NCBI RefSeq assembly: GCF_032854445.1
Contig: NC_088296.1
Location: forward strand, 18,093,485-18,157,484
Direction: 5' to 3'
Source: Liolophura sinensis
Lineage: Eukaryota; Mollusca; Polyplacophora; Chitonida; Chitonidae
Length of the DNA: 64,000 nucleotides
The position numbers and the translations under genes were made by a program. Each line of letters opens with the position of its first letter. Position 1 is the stretch's first letter. Positions 38,901-47,724 of the stretch are shown here, piece after piece. The notes beneath the pieces were generated by a model, which was not told the origin of the DNA, did not search any database, and was given only the letters and a program-made list of their open reading frames with translations.

Positions 38901-41900
38901 TCTTATTAAAAGTGAAAACTGAAAAAAACTAGTAGGTATTTACCATATTTACAGACTTAAAAGCTGAAAGACTACTGTTTTTACTTGGATGGGTTAAAAA
39001 AAATTCGTTTCGGACAGTGCTGTTAGGTAATATTGTTATAAAGCTGAAGTTGTAACTATCGGAAATTTTGGCAGCAAAATTCTTGTGAATGCTATTTTTT
39101 ATCATTTGGACCTTAGTTTGGCAGCCATACTGGATTTCAAGCAAAAACCTTCTTCTTAAGAACCAATGGACAGATCCTTCTAAAATTTTATATGCACGTA
39201 GAACGCTACTAATTACATGAAGTTTGAACAAAAAAAAACTCCATAAAAATTGGTTGAAAACATTAAAAGTTCAGCATTGTTTAGTGACTCCAGGACAGAC
39301 TTTTTCAAATAATCCACTGTATCTCATATATTTACCCCAAATTTCATCAATATCTAATCAAGATTCACCTATCCATTTTGCCCGATTCTGGCTACTCTCT
39401 TGATCAAAGAAAGGTGTTTCAAGGTTTGTTTGGAAGCCAGGATGTTTTCCTTTTTCAGCACTAAAAGAAAGATGTTGTGACCTAAATGGTCCCTGACTTA
39501 CTTTCCGTCTGTCCCAGTGTTAGCATAAACAACCATCCCTACAGCGTAACGCTCCACAATCTCCTCAAACTCTCGCAATTTCTCTGGGACTTGGAATCCA
39601 TGGCTCTACCAAAAGAAATTATTACAAGTATTTTTAAAGCTAATTGGTGTTCAATCCCATATTCTGGAATATTTCATGAATACAATACATGTCAGGTACA
39701 TATATTTCATTCATTTGATTAGCATTTAAGGTCATATTTTTACACAGTAGTAATGTTTCCTTTACAGAGCGCCAGAGTGGATGGAAATAACCAGATGCTG
39801 TATCCCACCCAAGGTTTAGCATCTTTCAAGTGACACCTTTAGCTTGATTCTCATTGCTTTATCCACCTCTTCGGGCCTCCTGAAAGTTTTTTGTTAAGTT
39901 CGATTAATTTCTTATAAGAAAAACTTAATTGCTGGCAATAAAATCATCGTCTTCACACGTTCATGGGCTTCTGAGAGTTGGTTTTAACCTACAAACTTTA
40001 TATGAAATATAGCACCTTTGTTCCATGTGTGACACAAGGATTTTATTGTGATGGCCAAGATCAAAATGAATGTCATAATACTGAAATGCAAGCCCTCTGC
40101 AGCAAGCACTCTCCATCAAGCCCTCTAGAGCAAGCTCTCTCCAGCAAGCTCTCTTCAGCAAGCACTCTACAGCAAGCCCTCTGCAGCAAGCCCTCTCCAT
40201 CAAGCTCTCTCCAGCAAGCACTCTACAGCAAGCCCTCTCCAGCAAGCCCTCTGTAGCAAGCCCTCTCCAGCAAGCCCTCTCCAGCAAGCCCTCCACCAAG
40301 CTCTCTCCAGCAAGCCCTTTCCAGCAAGCCCTCTCCAGTAAGCTCTCTCCAGCAAGCACCCTCCAGCAAGCACTCTCCAGCAAGCTCTCTCCAGCAAGCA
40401 CTCTACATCAAGCTCTCTCCAGCAAGCCCTCTACAGCAAGCTCTCTCCAGCAAGCCATCTACAGCAAGCCCCTTTACAGCAAGCACTCTACAGCAAGCAC
40501 TCTCCAGCAGCCTTCATGTAAGACAACATCAGCTGCCTCCCAAGCACCAATATTTTTGGGGTGCAGAGGAACCAGGGTCCTCACAGAAAATTACTGCCAG
40601 CCCCTCTTCATAGTTTGGATGTGCCTTGTACTTTCAAAAATGGTGTTCCACTCCCCCCTCCCCCTTATTTGCCCTGGAGTATATGGACATACCATCCAAT
40701 TAAAACGTGATATTAGAATCAGCCTGCATTTCTGTGGTTGCATAATCTTACCTTACGGCACACAATATCATCCCGGACATCAACCATACAGACTTGCTCC
40801 TTGGGGTCTAAACTCGAGTCAATCCCTGATGCCAAAAAAAAAAAAAAAGAGGCAAAATGAAACCATTTATTCCGGTTAATTATTCCATTCATTTATTTAT
40901 TTGATTGGTCCTTAGTACCTCAAGTACCTCAGTGGAGGTGTATCCTGTAAATATTAAGTAAAAAAAATGATGCCTGAGGTGTATCTGAGGTATAGCTGAG
41001 GTGCATGCTTATAGGCAAGTTGGATGTACACTATTTTCACTTTTATTTTGATACAAAGCAAGCTCAAAACACTTAAATATTGGCTATGTAAATTATAGAT
41101 AAATTTACAAAGTTTAAAGTTTGAAAATGAATGCTGTTCCTTGTTTGAAGTATCTGTAAAATCTCAGCTGATTTACAACAATAACAGTGATACACATTTA
41201 CATGAGGCTTTCTAGCTGCTTGATCAAAATTTAGTGCTACTCCTTTTCTATGCCTGTTACAACTGTTCGTCTGTCCAAACCTGTTACAAATTCAGTACAT
41301 AATTGGGTTGTTTTCCCAAAGCCTGGAATATATATGCACATTCTTCAGGGCAGCCATCTTGGAATAATCTGGGGCAAATATATCCATGCTCTGTGATTGG
41401 TCAATATTTGCACACTGGATGGCAAGTCAGTGTAGGGTGAGACAAAGGCTTATATTTATTTAGTAAACATTTTTTTCTTTTGCACAAGAACACTTGTAAT
41501 TTTGTACTCACCATTTTGTCTCAACTAAAATGTCTAAATCTGGTCCCTTCATTTAAACCTTGTTTCAACAAAGTAACTGAAGTGTACCTGGGGTACATGA
41601 CCACTAAATTATAATCAAAATCTCTAACGTGTACCTGACGTACCTGTGCGTCATTTACTTTTTTTAACTTTTAAAGTCTTTAAGGTGTACCTGAGCTATA
41701 TCGTCAAAGTGTTGATTTCTTTCAACGTTGCTGAGGTGTATTTGATTTATTTATTTATTTGACTGGTGTTTTACACAATACTCAAGAATATTTCACTTAT
41801 ATGATGGCGGCCCGCATTATGGTGGGTAAAAACCGGGCTAACCCAAGACCATCCGCAGGTTGAGAGGTGTATTTGAGGTACATTATCTCATATTCAAAAC

Positions 41901-44900
41901 TGCTCAAAAAATCTTAAAGTTTTTCCGGTGTACCTGAGATACATCATTTACTTCTTTTAGCTTTCATTAGCTTTCAAGTGTTGATTTTTTTTTCAAAGGA
42001 TGTTCCTGAGGTACATCCGAGTTATAGGCATATGGCTGGGGTGTATCTGAAGTACTACAGTACACCTCAGATAATATAGGTGGGGTGTACACCTGATCTA
42101 TACCTCACACTAAGGTGTACATGAGGCATACACCCCATACACACCTCATCTATACCTCATTTATACCTCACACTGAGGTGGACACCTCGTGTTTGGAAGA
42201 GTAAATTACACTGAAAGTTGCTCTTTTAAATGTGAAAAGGTTGAGGAGTTTGAATGGGTAACCGAGAGAACAGAAGCAGATCAGTATAGAATCTTGAAAA
42301 TTTCTTGCATGAAACAGTCTGCGCCTCTTAAATGACTTTGCCATTGGAATTTCATTTATTTGTTTATTTGATCAGAGTTTTACGCCATACTCAAAAATAT
42401 GTCACTGATACAACAGCGGCCAGAAACCCACATCCATCTGCAGGTTCTTAGCCGCAGAAAGGAAAACAGGAATGACCCACTGACAATTCCGTTTGATGTT
42501 CAGAATCAATAAGATAAAATAATTAGTCTAGACAGATCCCAGATTGTAAATCACATTTGTAAGCCGGAGTACCAGACCTTTTAATTTTCCCCTTGCCCCC
42601 GTGGCAAACCAACCAACACTTAACACCCCGCACTAGTATGGAGCTTTAGGAACAATGAGTTAGGCGTAAATTAAGACATGCAAATCTGATTTCCAAAACT
42701 CAATTTTGTTGTGCATGATTTTTATTATTTTGAACTGTGATATATCTTAGTTATACAACATTTTATCACAAAAGGGAAAAGGTAAAGCTTCTTGAACTTT
42801 GGTTAGAATACTCTTTCAACACATACATATATTTGGTCTAGTGTTGTCTTGTTTTTAAAATGGCAGGGCTTTAATATACATTTATTTGAGCAAGTCCTTA
42901 CCCAGAACTTGCTCAAGTTTAAGCCTCTCCTCCTTCACTCCGGGTATGTTCCCGTAGTTCGTCAGCGTTTTGTGCGTAAGTTTCTTGAGAAAGTCACAGT
43001 GATGTCCATTGGGAAAGAGGTACTCCTTTCCTATATCCTGAGTGTAGAGAACCACATTGCCTGAACAACAGAAAGACAACATTATGAGTGAAGAGAGCCA
43101 CATTGCCTGAACAACATAAAGACAACATTATGAGTGGAGAGAGCCACATTGCCTGAACAACAGAAAAACAACATTCTGAGTGAAGAGAACCACATTGCCT
43201 GAACAACAGAAAAACAACATTATGAGTGAAGAGAACCATATTGCCTGAACAACAGAAAGACAACATTGTGAGTGAAGAGAACCACATTGTCTGAAGAAGA
43301 AAAGACAACATCCTGAGTGAAGAGAGCCACATTGCCTGAAGAACTGAAAGACAACATTATGAGTGAAGAGAGCCACATTGCCTAAACAACAGAAAGACAA
43401 CATCCTGAGTGAAGAGACCCACATTGCCTGAAGAACAGAAAGACAACATTATGAGTGAAGAGAACCACATTGCCTGAAGGACAGAAAGACAACATTCTGA
43501 GTGAAGAGAACCACATTACCCGAGGAACAGAAAGACAACATTCTGAGTGAAGAGAACCACATTGCCTGAACAACAGAAAGACACCATTCTGAGTGAAGAG
43601 AGCCACATTGCCTGAACAACAGAAAGACACCATTCTGAGTGAAGAGACCCACATTGCCTGAACAACAGAAAGACAACATTATGAGTGAAGAGAGCCACAT
43701 TGCCTGAAGAACAGAAAGACAACATTCTGAGTGAAGAGAACCACATTGCCTGAAGAACAGAAAGACAACATTATGAGTGAAGAGAACCACATTGCCTGAA
43801 GAACAGAAAGACAACATTCTGAGTGAAGAGAACCACATTGCCTGAAGAACAGAAAGACAACATTATGAGTGAAGAGAACCACATTGCCTGAAGAACAGAA
43901 AGACAACATTATGAGTGAAGAGAACCACATTGCCTGAACAACACAAGACAATGTCCTAAGAGTAGACAGCCACATTGCCTGAAGAACAGAAAGGCAACAT
44001 CCTGAGTGAAGAGAACCAAACTGTCTGAAGAAGGAGAGAGACGACAGCATCCTGAGTGAACAAAATTTTTAATTTACAAGAAAACTTATGAGAAACTGAT
44101 TTTCTAACTCTTGTGAAAGTGCTTGCTGATGACCACAGGTGAAACAGTGAAAGCTGGATTTGAGTCTGGGACGTCTTTGGTCACAGGCTGCTAACATGAG
44201 GTTAATGGGCCTGTAAGGTTAATGGGCCTGTATGGTTAATGGGCCTGTATGGTTAATGGGCCTGCAAGGACACAATGTACATGTACTATGGGTTATACCA
44301 AAGATTTTAAAACAGTATTTTTTGCTTCCTCAGTTAGCGCTCTGCACCGAGAGGATAGAGCAGGAAAACAGGACTGGTCGGCCCTGTGTCAGAACAATGT
44401 GACTGGATGGAGTGTCATGTCTGGTGTCTCTGCCATGATACTTCAGTGGTGGCAGCACTTTGGCAGCGTGAACACGCCTTGCCACAAGAAGACACAGTAT
44501 ATGTACACACACCTAATGACTCCTTGTCGTTATGTCTGAAAAATTGCGCAGTACGACGTAAAACCCCAGGTATGCACACATTCATATTCAAATCTTATGA
44601 ATGAAGGTCTAAATGCTAAAAAAAAAACATTGGCAATACATAAAATACTAAATTTAGCAACTACGTCAAAAGATGTAGATGAACTAACATAATATACATG
44701 TCTACATGTATCTGAGTTTTCCGGTGATAATTGTTGGAAATTTCGAAGAATTGAACCAAAAAAGTTATTTTCACGTCTTACTTACCTGCTTTCTTTAAAT
44801 GGACAGCTCCGTATATTCCTGCCACTACACACCTTAATGAATCTATTGTCCTCTGTGTGTTTGTCGAATGTGGGCTAGAAAGGTAAAGAATTTTAAGGTA

Positions 44901-47724
44901 GTGAGTGAACTGATAATAACAATCAAAGTGCTAAAATGTAGACTGGTAGGAACTGAAGCCCTGAAGAAATTCACCAGAGCTTCATTTTTGAGGTATGCTA
45001 TTCCGCTTCCTTTAGTTCACATTTATTTATTTGACTGGTGTTTTACGCCGCACTCAAGAATATTTCACTTATGGTGGGAGGAAAATAGTGTGGGGTTCAC
45101 ATTTCAGAAATACTCAACTATTAATCATGGTAAATAATTTGCAGAATTTAGCTTAATTTTCCGCAAAGGGGGTGAAAAGCAAACTTTATGAGTGAATGTT
45201 TGCTAATGACTTAAACACAGCATATTTACCTGTCAAAAATATTAATTTATTTATATGATTGGTGCCGTACTCAAGAATATTTCACTCCTGTATTAAGCTG
45301 TGAGAAACCCCGGCTCGGGGGGAAAACCCTTGACCACCCCTGCAATTTGCTAACAGACCTTCCCAGGTATGACTGGAGAGGAAGAGAAATTGATTACCAT
45401 CCATGGATGACTGAAACTAAGACTGAAATAAAAAATCTATGATAGGAAATGTATGTGCATGGATATCAGAGTCAGATAAAGCCTCTGGCCAATAACAGCC
45501 AGAGATCAAAACAAATTATTGCAATTCTTCAACCTTTTCACATGTTTGCAAGGTGTTTATTTAAGCAAATTCTGAGGTAGACTAATAAAATTAATCTTTT
45601 TGTGAAGCAATGAAATCGGACAATACAACCAATGTAAATTTGTCTGCAAAATCAAATTAAAAACCTGTATAACTTGCACTGAAAGTGGCTTTTTCATATG
45701 CAAAAAAATTGAGGATTTCGGCTACTCACAGAATACTGTCAGGGTCATACTGATCACTGATTAGTCCAAACTTGTCTAGGTACCGCCTCCGTATCCGCCT
45801 CCCAAGCATGTAAGTCTGGTCTTGTCCTAGACAGGTCAGTTGACCAATGTAAGCTCCGCCCTAACAAGACACAAAATGATTGGCATGCTGATTGACAATG
45901 TCACAAGTGATATGTAAAAAATATTAGAATTTTTTCATCTGGTTTTTGCGTTTAAAGAGGGCCTGTGTTAAAACCATTCATACATGTGTTCGTCTCTTTC
46001 TGAATATTTCTTAGATTTCTGATTTCTGTGGTTTTAAAAGGAAAAAAAATTAATAAAATCGGAAAAAAGAAAATAGAGAAATTTTTACTTTAAGTGTGTG
46101 TTTCCTGTAATGCTTCTCCAGAGAAGATTCTGGTCTTGCTCCTCCTCCAGTCAAATCACGTAGAGTGTAATTGTACAGAGTATGTGGTACCCCTGCTAGG
46201 AAGAGCCGAACTTCATAATTGGCCTGGAAAACAAGGAAAACTGGCAGCTTCATAAAGTTGAATCATAACAACAATCAGGATGACTCTCTATAAAATCCAT
46301 GAGGAAGTTTTGCCATTTTTAAGCCGACATACACGGATATTTCACTTATATGATGGTAGACATCACTATGGTGGTAGGTAATCCATGACCATCCGCAGGT
46401 TGCTGGCAGACCTACACACGTACGACCGGGGAGAAAGCTAGCGTGAGATGGACTTGAACCCACAGAGACCGGACTGGTGAGAGGCTCCTAAGTTATTACA
46501 CCTGCTGGCACGCTAACCACCTCTGCCACAGATTCCCCCAGGTATCATCTGTCATAGCAAAACCATTTCCAAAGTGGGAGGTCTACGTATCACATTAGAA
46601 ATATTATATGATTTTATGACATTAATTTATTTATTTATTTATTTGATTGGTGTTTTACGCCGTACTCAAGAATATTTCACTTATACGACAGCAGTCAGCA
46701 TTATGGTGGGAGGAAACCGGGCAGAGCCTGGGGGAAACCCACAACCATTCGCAGGTTGCTGATAGACCTTCCCACCTACAGTTGGAGTGGAAGCCAGCAT
46801 AAGCTGGACTTGAACTCACACCAACCGCATTGGTGAGAAACTCCTTGGTCATTACACAGTATAAAAAGCTGGTAAATTCTGATCAAAAATAGCAGGGTGA
46901 TATGCCCATGAAAGTCTATGATGATGACGAGTCCACTATGACGTCAGGGTTGATCTGGGTCCACATATGATGGCCAGACCTGGGCATCTGAGCCGGCTAC
47001 AGGTACCATGGATGGAAGATATTCACCATGGCTGGAGGATATTCACCATGGCTGGAGGATATTCACCATGGATGGAAGATATTCACCATGGCTGGAGGAT
47101 ATTTACCATGGCTGGAGGATATTCACCATGGCTGGAGGATATTTACCATGGCTGGAGGATATTCACCATGGCTGGAGGATATTCACCATGGCTGGGAGAT
47201 ATTCACCATGGCTGGAGGATATTCACCATGGCTGGAGGATATTCACCATGGCTGGAGGATATTCACCATGGCTGGGAGATATTCACCATGGCTGGAGGAT
47301 ATTCACCATGGCTGGAGGATATTTACCATGGCTGGAGGATATTTACCATGGCTGGAGGATATTCAGCTACGATCCGGCTGTGCTGTAAATCCTGTTTCAA
47401 TCAATCATCAACGTTACCGGTAGGCCTACTGCAGAGATTAAAAGACAACCAGCACCTTACACATTTTGATTTTACCTGTTCAACATTTGGTATGGTTTTC
47501 AAAGGGGTCCGTGCTCCGTGACGAAAGAAAATCTGCACCTGTTTTAACGTCAGCTCACTTTCGATTTCGTTATCAACTTCGCGCTCAACATCAACCGCTT
47601 TGTTGTCTGCGAAAACAGTTCCGGTATTTGACTGAAACCTCCAACGAACGCCTTTATAGGCCATCAGACCAAGAACAGCAGATCCAGTCGCACTACTTAA
47701 CTGCAGTATCAATCTTCGATTCAT
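35980..47724 (-). CDS. ACP6: Lysophosphatidic acid phosphatase type 6-like (histidine acid phosphatase), 479 aa
   Basis: Eleven minus-strand exons, all GT-AG and phase-consistent: 47724-47476, 46223-46089, 45860-45730, 44874-44786, 43060-42902, 40825-40752, 39605-39502, 38878-38792, 37490-37322, 36920-36788, 36089-35980 (stop 35980-35982). The family removes phosphate from lysophosphatidic acid, in mitochondria for ACP6. The N-terminus MNRRLILQLSSATGSAVLG fits a mitochondrial presequence. The catalytic signature RHGARTP is at residues 68-74, and the proton-donor HD pair is at H353-D354 (SCHDTSLIP), followed by MGIYDGKWPPFA, close to the vertebrate ACP6 pattern. The usual RSTN motif reads HSTN (H174). 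The C-terminal 36 residues are acidic and poorly conserved. An upstream in-frame Met (47787) would add 21 residues. Introns hold SINEs and several minisatellites. Confidence 0.95.
36235..36352 (-). repeat. SINE family A fragment
   Basis: catccgtaggttgctgacag and the tatcattatggtggg motif, in ACP6 intron 10. Confidence 0.75.
37571..37795 (+). repeat. tRNA-like SINE candidate, different body
   Basis: Head gagtggcctagtggtaagag resembles an A-box, followed by a body unlike families A and B (gggttatatcagtgagttat). In ACP6 intron 8. Confidence 0.4.
38033..38242 (-). repeat. SINE family A, nearly full length
   Basis: Tail atttatttgggtttttcgcc, body ggagaggaagccagcatgag, reversed B-box gacttgaactc. 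Confidence 0.88.
38406..38567 (+). repeat. SINE family A, 5'-truncated
   Basis: Body from ctctggctgtaagtgggaag to tail cggcataaaacaccaatcaa with (AAAT)n. Confidence 0.9.
40088..40512. repeat. 14-bp minisatellite, about 30 copies
   Basis: Unit caagcyctctccag with single-base variants and one shortened unit, in ACP6 intron 6. The open frames across it are products of the repeat. Confidence 0.95.
40910..42195. repeat. Dispersed GGTGTACCTGAGGTA-type motif cluster
   Basis: Many irregularly spaced variants of aggtgtacctgaggtacat, in both orientations, densest at 42000-42190. It lies in ACP6 intron 5 and is interrupted by a SINE at 41746. It is not a regular tandem array. Confidence 0.75.
41746..41863 (-). 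repeat. SINE family A, 5'-truncated, with target-site duplication
   Basis: Flanked by perfect 13-bp direct repeats gaggtgtatttga at 41733-41745 and 41864-41876. The insertion ends at the ccgcaggt body position. Confidence 0.92.
42350..42455 (-). repeat. SINE family A fragment
   Basis: gatcagagttttacgccata, then ccatctgcaggtt. Confidence 0.8.
43061..44060 (-). repeat. 46-bp minisatellite made of duplicated splice acceptors, about 21 copies
   Basis: In the gene's sense strand each unit contains a pyrimidine tract ttctgttgttcag followed by gcaatgtggttctct. That is the same order as the genuine acceptor and the first bases of ACP6 exon 5, which start at 43060 immediately beside the array. One unit has lost its AG (near 43510-43520); nearly all others keep it. 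Confidence 0.95.
44201..44272. repeat. 17-bp tandem repeat, about 4 copies
   Basis: Unit ggttaatgggcctgtat. Confidence 0.93.
44328..44585 (+). repeat. SINE family B, plus orientation
   Basis: Ends in tcgttatgtctgaaaaattg and acgacgtaaaaccccaggta, the family-B tail. In ACP6 intron 4. Confidence 0.75.
45018..45090 (-). repeat. SINE family A fragment
   Basis: gactggtgttttacgccgca and the tatggtgggaggaaa motif with the middle deleted. Confidence 0.85.
45241..45389 (-). repeat. SINE family A fragment
   Basis: tatgattggtgccgtactca, then ctaacagaccttcccagg. Confidence 0.8.
45526..45645 (-). repeat. Dispersed repeat E, copy 1
   Basis: The reverse complement matches 58062-58203 (shared block caaccttttcacatgtttgc and continuing through tgtttatttaagca). 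Confidence 0.8.
46320..46537 (-). repeat. SINE family A, nearly full length
   Basis: atttcacttatatgatggta, ccatccgcaggttgctgg, reversed B-box gacttgaaccc. Confidence 0.88.
46624..46860 (-). repeat. SINE family A, nearly full length
   Basis: Close to consensus: tgattggtgttttacgccgt, tatggtgggaggaaaccggg, then a reversed B-box. Head truncated. Confidence 0.93.
47001..47365. repeat. 20-bp minisatellite, about 18 copies
   Basis: Unit attcaccatggctggaggat, in ACP6 intron 1. Each unit carries CACCATGG, and since 20 is not a multiple of 3, all three plus-strand frames stay open. Confidence 0.97.

Follow-up and report, generated by a model that had tools for sequence, protein, structure and literature searches.

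We describe a tandem array of splice acceptor copies at exon 5 of an ACP6-like histidine phosphatase gene in the chiton Liolophura sinensis (a name since corrected from L. japonica; PMC12441733). This array is very probably a mirage, i.e. a minisatellite spanning a splice junction, which arose as a by-product of slippage, is mostly neutral, and leaves the genuine junction at 43060 as the main acceptor. The locus presents a natural splice-site competition, with 22 near-identical acceptors available to one exon and one donor.

Host gene and anatomy of the array

The gene occupies the minus strand of the window, by which we mean the whole stretch of 64,000 nucleotides that was analysed, and all positions without a contig name refer to it. 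The joined exons matched lysophosphatidic acid phosphatase type 6 (PDB 4job) with E 3.1e-31, and Pfam His_Phos_2 matched the joined exons 1-5 with E 8.2e-16. Exon 5 alone matches weakly (E 1.1 against PDB; E 0.001 by tblastn inside the window), and lies in gene order between exons with stronger matches. The tblastn query was the human ACP6 protein, and many rows at chance level were put aside; the matches are summarized together with the features of the array in Table 1. A splice-aware scan gave a further exon candidate at 39605-39502 (score 32, runner-up 22), and a candidate at 38878-38792 (score 19) could not be distinguished from the background of that scan. When part of the ACP6-like protein was compared with the whole genome, these exons were matched at one locus, with two weaker matches, one on contig C9 (48% identity) and one on contig C11 (42% identity, interrupted by a stop).

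Table 1. Positions of the array, of the exons and intron around it, and of tblastn matches to human ACP6 in the window.
Feature	Position	Strand	Remarks
46-bp minisatellite, 21 upstream acceptor copies and real junction	43035..44058	minus	outer limits are the flanking 10-nt words
Distal copy of 10-nt word CACTCAGGAT	44049..44058	minus	outer array edge; possible left partner of founding slippage
Proximal copy of 10-nt word CACTCAGGAT	43035..43044	minus	within exon 5, codons ACT CAG GAT; possible right partner
ACP6 exon 4, 89 nt	44786..44874	minus	start placed by eye; ends in phase 1; strong donor GCAG/gtaagtaag
ACP6 intron 4, 1725 nt	43061..44785	minus	array makes up over half
ACP6 exon 5, 159 nt	42902..43060	minus	phase 1 entry; donor CTGG/gtaagg
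tblastn match, human ACP6	47610-47470	minus	E 3e-6
tblastn match, human ACP6	46187-46089	minus	E 0.03
tblastn match, human ACP6	45878-45732	minus	E 4e-6
tblastn match, human ACP6 (exon 4)	44867-44811	minus	E 0.19
tblastn match, human ACP6 (exon 5)	43061-42894	minus	E 0.001
tblastn match, human ACP6	37483-37322	minus	E 3e-13
tblastn match, human ACP6	36923-36807	minus	E 11, chance level

Tandem Repeats Finder reports a period of 46 at 43038-44032, with 21.7 copies and 90% matches. Counted from the real junction (k=0), 21 acceptor copies lie upstream, their anchors running from 43106 (k=1) to 44024 (k=21) at a spacing of 46 in 19 of the 21 steps and of 45 in the other two. The unit consists of a pyrimidine tract, CAG, and exon-derived sequence like GCAATGTGGTTCTCTTCACTCAG; CAG is replaced by CGG in k=10 and by TAG in k=7. 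Exon 5 contributes its first 26 bases to the unit, 24 of which match the unit consensus, and across the unit core the real junction agrees at 27 of 28 positions. The original prediction of about 21 tandem decoys built from the exon 5 acceptor, with a unit made of acceptor plus exon start and an array adjoining the real exon, is thereby borne out, the exon 5 junction itself being the 22nd and last unit. When the genome (609,464,459 bases in 632 contigs) was searched with the array, at least 10 matches were obtained, and 10 of 10 among the matches listed lie at the ACP6 locus. The HiFi reads behind the assembly average 8,347 bp (PMC11068029), so that an array of 1 kb should be correctly assembled; the tandem array of exon 5 acceptor copies is real.

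Origin, homogenisation and genomic setting

The exon 5 junction is likely the seed of the array, because the unit is composed of its acceptor and exon start and no other locus was found; since exon 5 belongs to the coding part of a gene that has recognisable relatives, the coding junction is also the likely source. The genuine junction had been proposed as the seed from the outset, with occurrence of the unit elsewhere as an ordinary satellite named as the contrary finding, and the proposal is supported: the array was seen only at the ACP6 locus, among the matches listed. The word CACTCAGGAT occurs five times on the minus strand of the window, always within the array or the exon, and nowhere on the plus strand. 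We infer a single-copy ancestor with CACTCAGGAT on both sides of the acceptor, an arrangement that would fit slippage between short direct repeats.

The inner units look like a homogenised array, as expected of concerted evolution: units k=15 to k=18 match the consensus at 45-46 of 46 positions and include two identical pairs (k=15 and k=17; k=16 and k=18). In the exon-derived part, which is free of indels, the two units farthest from the exon score lowest of the 22 (k=20, 19/26; k=21, 22/26; others 23-26), and the real junction, which forms the edge of the array on the exon side, is without such divergence (24/26 in this part, 43/46 overall). Low scores over the full unit in k=5 (36/46) and k=19 (37/46) arise because a 1-nt deletion meets an ungapped alignment. 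Identity to the real unit has no trend with distance along the array (Spearman -0.12, P 0.60).

Minisatellites are abundant around this locus and beyond it. A 200-kb sample, made up of twenty stretches of 10 kb from fixed places on contigs C1, C2 and C3, holds 69 arrays with a period of at least 9 and at least 2.5 copies, amounting to 13.1% of bases, and the window holds 13 arrays (6.0% of bases). In a genome this dense in minisatellites, occasional arrays at junctions would be expected. A strict blind scan for an exon-like border at an array end returned the ACP6 locus alone among these 82 arrays. A relaxed junction scan gave 4 hits including the ACP6 locus, compared with 3.3 +/- 1.5 in 30 shifted placements, and the remaining three hits (30, 40, and 53 aa) were without a Pfam match at E 0.001; there is no sign, at the low power of this comparison, that arrays prefer exon-like junctions. 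The published repeat table lists simple repeats and microsatellites, with RNA, at 0.08% and unclassified repeats at 14.04% (PMC11068029). Given that 13.1% of our sample consists of tandem arrays against 0.08% in that table, minisatellites may be hidden among its unclassified repeats.

Several further repeats and one gene cluster were recorded in passing. Within ACP6 intron 1, an array of 18 copies of 20 bp (47005-47365) begins, by eye, about 110 nt past exon 1, and its units carry on the minus strand the acceptor- and donor-like words ctccag and ccatgGTGAAT/GTAAAT. Intron 4 contains a second, short array at 44199-44269 (17 bp, 4.2 copies), the sense units of which contain CAG, and downstream of exon 5 an array of 30 copies of 14 bp (40088-40509) has open frames of 264 aa on the plus strand and 148 aa on the minus strand. 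Seven arrays lie within the 10-kb stretch C1:1000001-1010000 (L012). Eight haemocyanin beta-sandwich domains, each in an open frame of 429-529 aa, are clustered at C8:37880506-37891931; this cluster had no matches among 14 control genomes and agrees with a mollusc.

Splice signals, reading frames and competing explanations

Splice signals were scored with approximate matrices and an approximate branch-point consensus. On this scale the real acceptor has a score of 12.1, which is equalled or exceeded by 14 of the 21 copies, in keeping with the expectation that the copies resemble splice acceptors; in the 200-kb sample, on its plus strand, sites that reach this score occur at only 0.09 per kb. 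AG is kept in 20 of the 21 upstream copies, the exception being k=10 (43519) with GG, and a loose branch-point-like word, YTNAY, lies upstream in all copies except k=19 (20/21), with TTCAC in 19 of 21. Given a mean column identity of 0.916 in the array, the retention of AG does not clearly speak for or against selection (P 0.13). The strongest donor-like score within the array is 6.2, whereas the donors of exons 4 and 5 reach 12.6 and 8.0, respectively, and array units as cassette exons were rejected on the weakness of these sites. A structured RNA was likewise rejected, as folding of one 276-nt array stretch was no better than that of 200 shuffles (z 0.62). As a separate observation, k=10, having lost its AG, reads CGG/GTAATG, a weak donor-like site (score 5.6) 46 nt downstream of the intact acceptor k=11 (43565). 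The pair is possibly a nascent 46-nt cassette exon, which may be compared with the mirage model of intron gain.

For every one of the 21 copies, a transcript with exon 4 joined to it was built in silico, and translation was followed into exon 5. The frame is open into exon 5 from none of the copies, and a premature stop is reached from all 21, within the array for 19 and within exon 5 for k=1 and k=4. The seven copies with an insert divisible by three (k=3, 7, 10, 13, 16, 19, and 20) all stop within the array, and retention of intron 4 leads to a stop at the third codon. TCATAAT, which holds TAA in one frame, is present in 9 of 21 units. Three parts of the original prediction are touched by these results: (i) long open sense runs do exist, reaching 137 aa from stop to stop, but the three frames together contain 12 stops in the stretch from 44024 to exon 5; (ii) the statement that three units add 138 nt in frame is only approximately true, because two of the steps are 45 bp; and (iii) the proposal that hydrophobic inserts, about 46 residues long, are added in frame fails for this allele, no copy being open into exon 5. 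For k=1 and k=4, the stops fall slightly more than 90 nt before the end of exon 5, and a stop that far before an exon end suffices for decay by the usual rule. Judged from the translations, splicing to any upstream copy would probably ruin the transcript instead of giving a longer protein.

That upstream copies nevertheless insert hydrophobic repeats in frame and tune isoform length is scarcely credible. While the copies resemble functional acceptors by the approximate matrix, the array holds long stop-free runs, and human tandem repeats at exon-intron boundaries can yield alternative splicing (PMC2812944), the absence of an open frame from any of the 21 copies contradicts the model, which is rejected for the examined allele. 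The TAA in 9 of 21 units also speaks against it. It is also extremely improbable that an unrelated satellite or mobile repeat came to lie beside exon 5 by chance and merely resembles the junction. A genome sample so rich in tandem repeats would offer such a neighbour, but the array occurs at no other genome locus among the matches listed, on which ground an ordinary dispersed satellite is disfavoured, and 26 bases of the unit match the coding exon at 24 positions in register.

A further possibility is that the decoys are used measurably and lead to premature stops, with copy number setting how much ACP6 mRNA survives decay. The acceptor scores (14/21), AG retention (20/21), and branch-point-like words (20/21) together make leaky use of the decoys plausible, and such leakage may matter; moreover, all 21 outcomes end in a premature stop, and those of k=1 and k=4 in exon 5 lie far enough upstream for decay by the usual rule. 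Precedent comes from the ABCA7 VNTR, where retention of a 25-bp unit causes a frameshift (PMC5954066). Against this, non-coding repeats are expected to hold stops by chance, AG retention is no higher than array identity predicts, proximity to the exon body would favour 43060, and amphioxus mirages are suggested to splice normally (PMC3087553). We consider measurable use with an effect on mRNA level unlikely. Rather improbable, too, is the proposal that the array acts as a copy-number brake on ACP6 through stop-leading acceptors of equal strength, and that such arrays recur in minisatellite-rich molluscs. If this were true, the share of ACP6 mRNA removed by decay would depend on allele length, and new splice sites and introns could be drawn from the boundary-spanning minisatellites of molluscs.

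The mostly neutral mirage is the reading that we prefer. Two CACTCAGGAT direct repeats flanking the acceptor would have been the partners in the founding event, whether slippage or unequal exchange, after which the array would have grown and then been partly homogenised. Exon 5 would still be spliced mainly from 43060, since this is the sole copy joined to the exon 5 body and its donor (exon definition and proximity), and the upstream copies would be removed with the intron. RNA-seq of five L. sinensis tissues (digestive gland, foot, gill, gonad and heart) exists (PMC11068029) and could show the choice of the spliceosome among the acceptors. Leakage to an upstream copy would lead to a frameshift or a stop within the array, and the message, carrying a premature stop, would be degraded, provided that nonsense-mediated decay works here as elsewhere. 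The array would most likely be tolerated, arising as a side product in a genome rich in minisatellites and having for the most part a neutral effect.

Comparison with known boundary-spanning repeats

In intron 7 of human factor VII, 37-bp repeats may extend across the donor border, i.e. on the donor side, unlike the acceptor-side array of the chiton; our literature search found no paper supporting this 37-bp repeat. A search of the open-licence literature likewise found no mollusc mirage in print, and no relevant paper on chiton intron minisatellites.

Human genes offer three partial parallels. In IFI6 (6-16), minisatellite units serve as alternative splice donors in mRNA (PMC4526556). The likeness is that an exon border is supplied with a series of splice sites by minisatellite units; the difference is that these are donors, with downstream units used, whereas the chiton units carry the acceptor, and with a best donor-like score of 6.2 the chiton array gives no donor supply of the IFI6 type. 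The original IFI6 paper is reportedly Turri 1995. In ABCA7, the VNTR in question lies in intron 18, and one unit is retained (PMC5954066). The ABCA7 repeat resembles the chiton array in being an intronic tandem repeat beside an exon, with a splice site in the unit and a shift of frame on unit retention, and differs in that its 25-bp unit carries a donor and its effect on splicing was demonstrated in human tissue. Human paralogs in segmental duplications contain internal tandem repeats at exon-intron boundaries, which are reported to alter gene structure and form introns (PMC2812944); minisatellite expansion at the boundary is common to both systems, while change of gene structure and intron formation are reported for the human repeats.

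The closest comparison is with amphioxus, where mirages, as PMC3087553 describes them, are minisatellites across intron-exon boundaries, the founding work on Adh3 being cited there as Canestro 2002. In the amphioxus gene BflGb6, the repeat takes in the 3' intron end together with the 5' portion of the exon that follows, with splice signals retained in many units, not all; mirages undergo concerted evolution within the cluster, with the boundary units left out, and RT-PCR suggested that regular splicing is undisturbed (PMC3087553). In the chiton, each of the 22 units, the real border among them, holds intron end and exon start in the register of that border, and the splice dinucleotide is again kept in many, not all, units (20/21 AG). 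The chiton unit measures 46 bp with 21 upstream copies, in contrast to units of 150-160 bp in BflGb6, the haplotypes of which differ in length with 6 or 3 units. The comparison sets RT-PCR and haplotype lengths for amphioxus beside the sequence of one haplotype for the chiton. By its unit anatomy, partial AG retention, and apparent concerted evolution of inner units, the chiton array classes as a mirage. It extends the structure described from amphioxus in PMC3087553 to a mollusc, in which the acceptor-side array is long and clean, and what is new relative to known mirages is the phylum, the length of the acceptor-side array, and the frame test.
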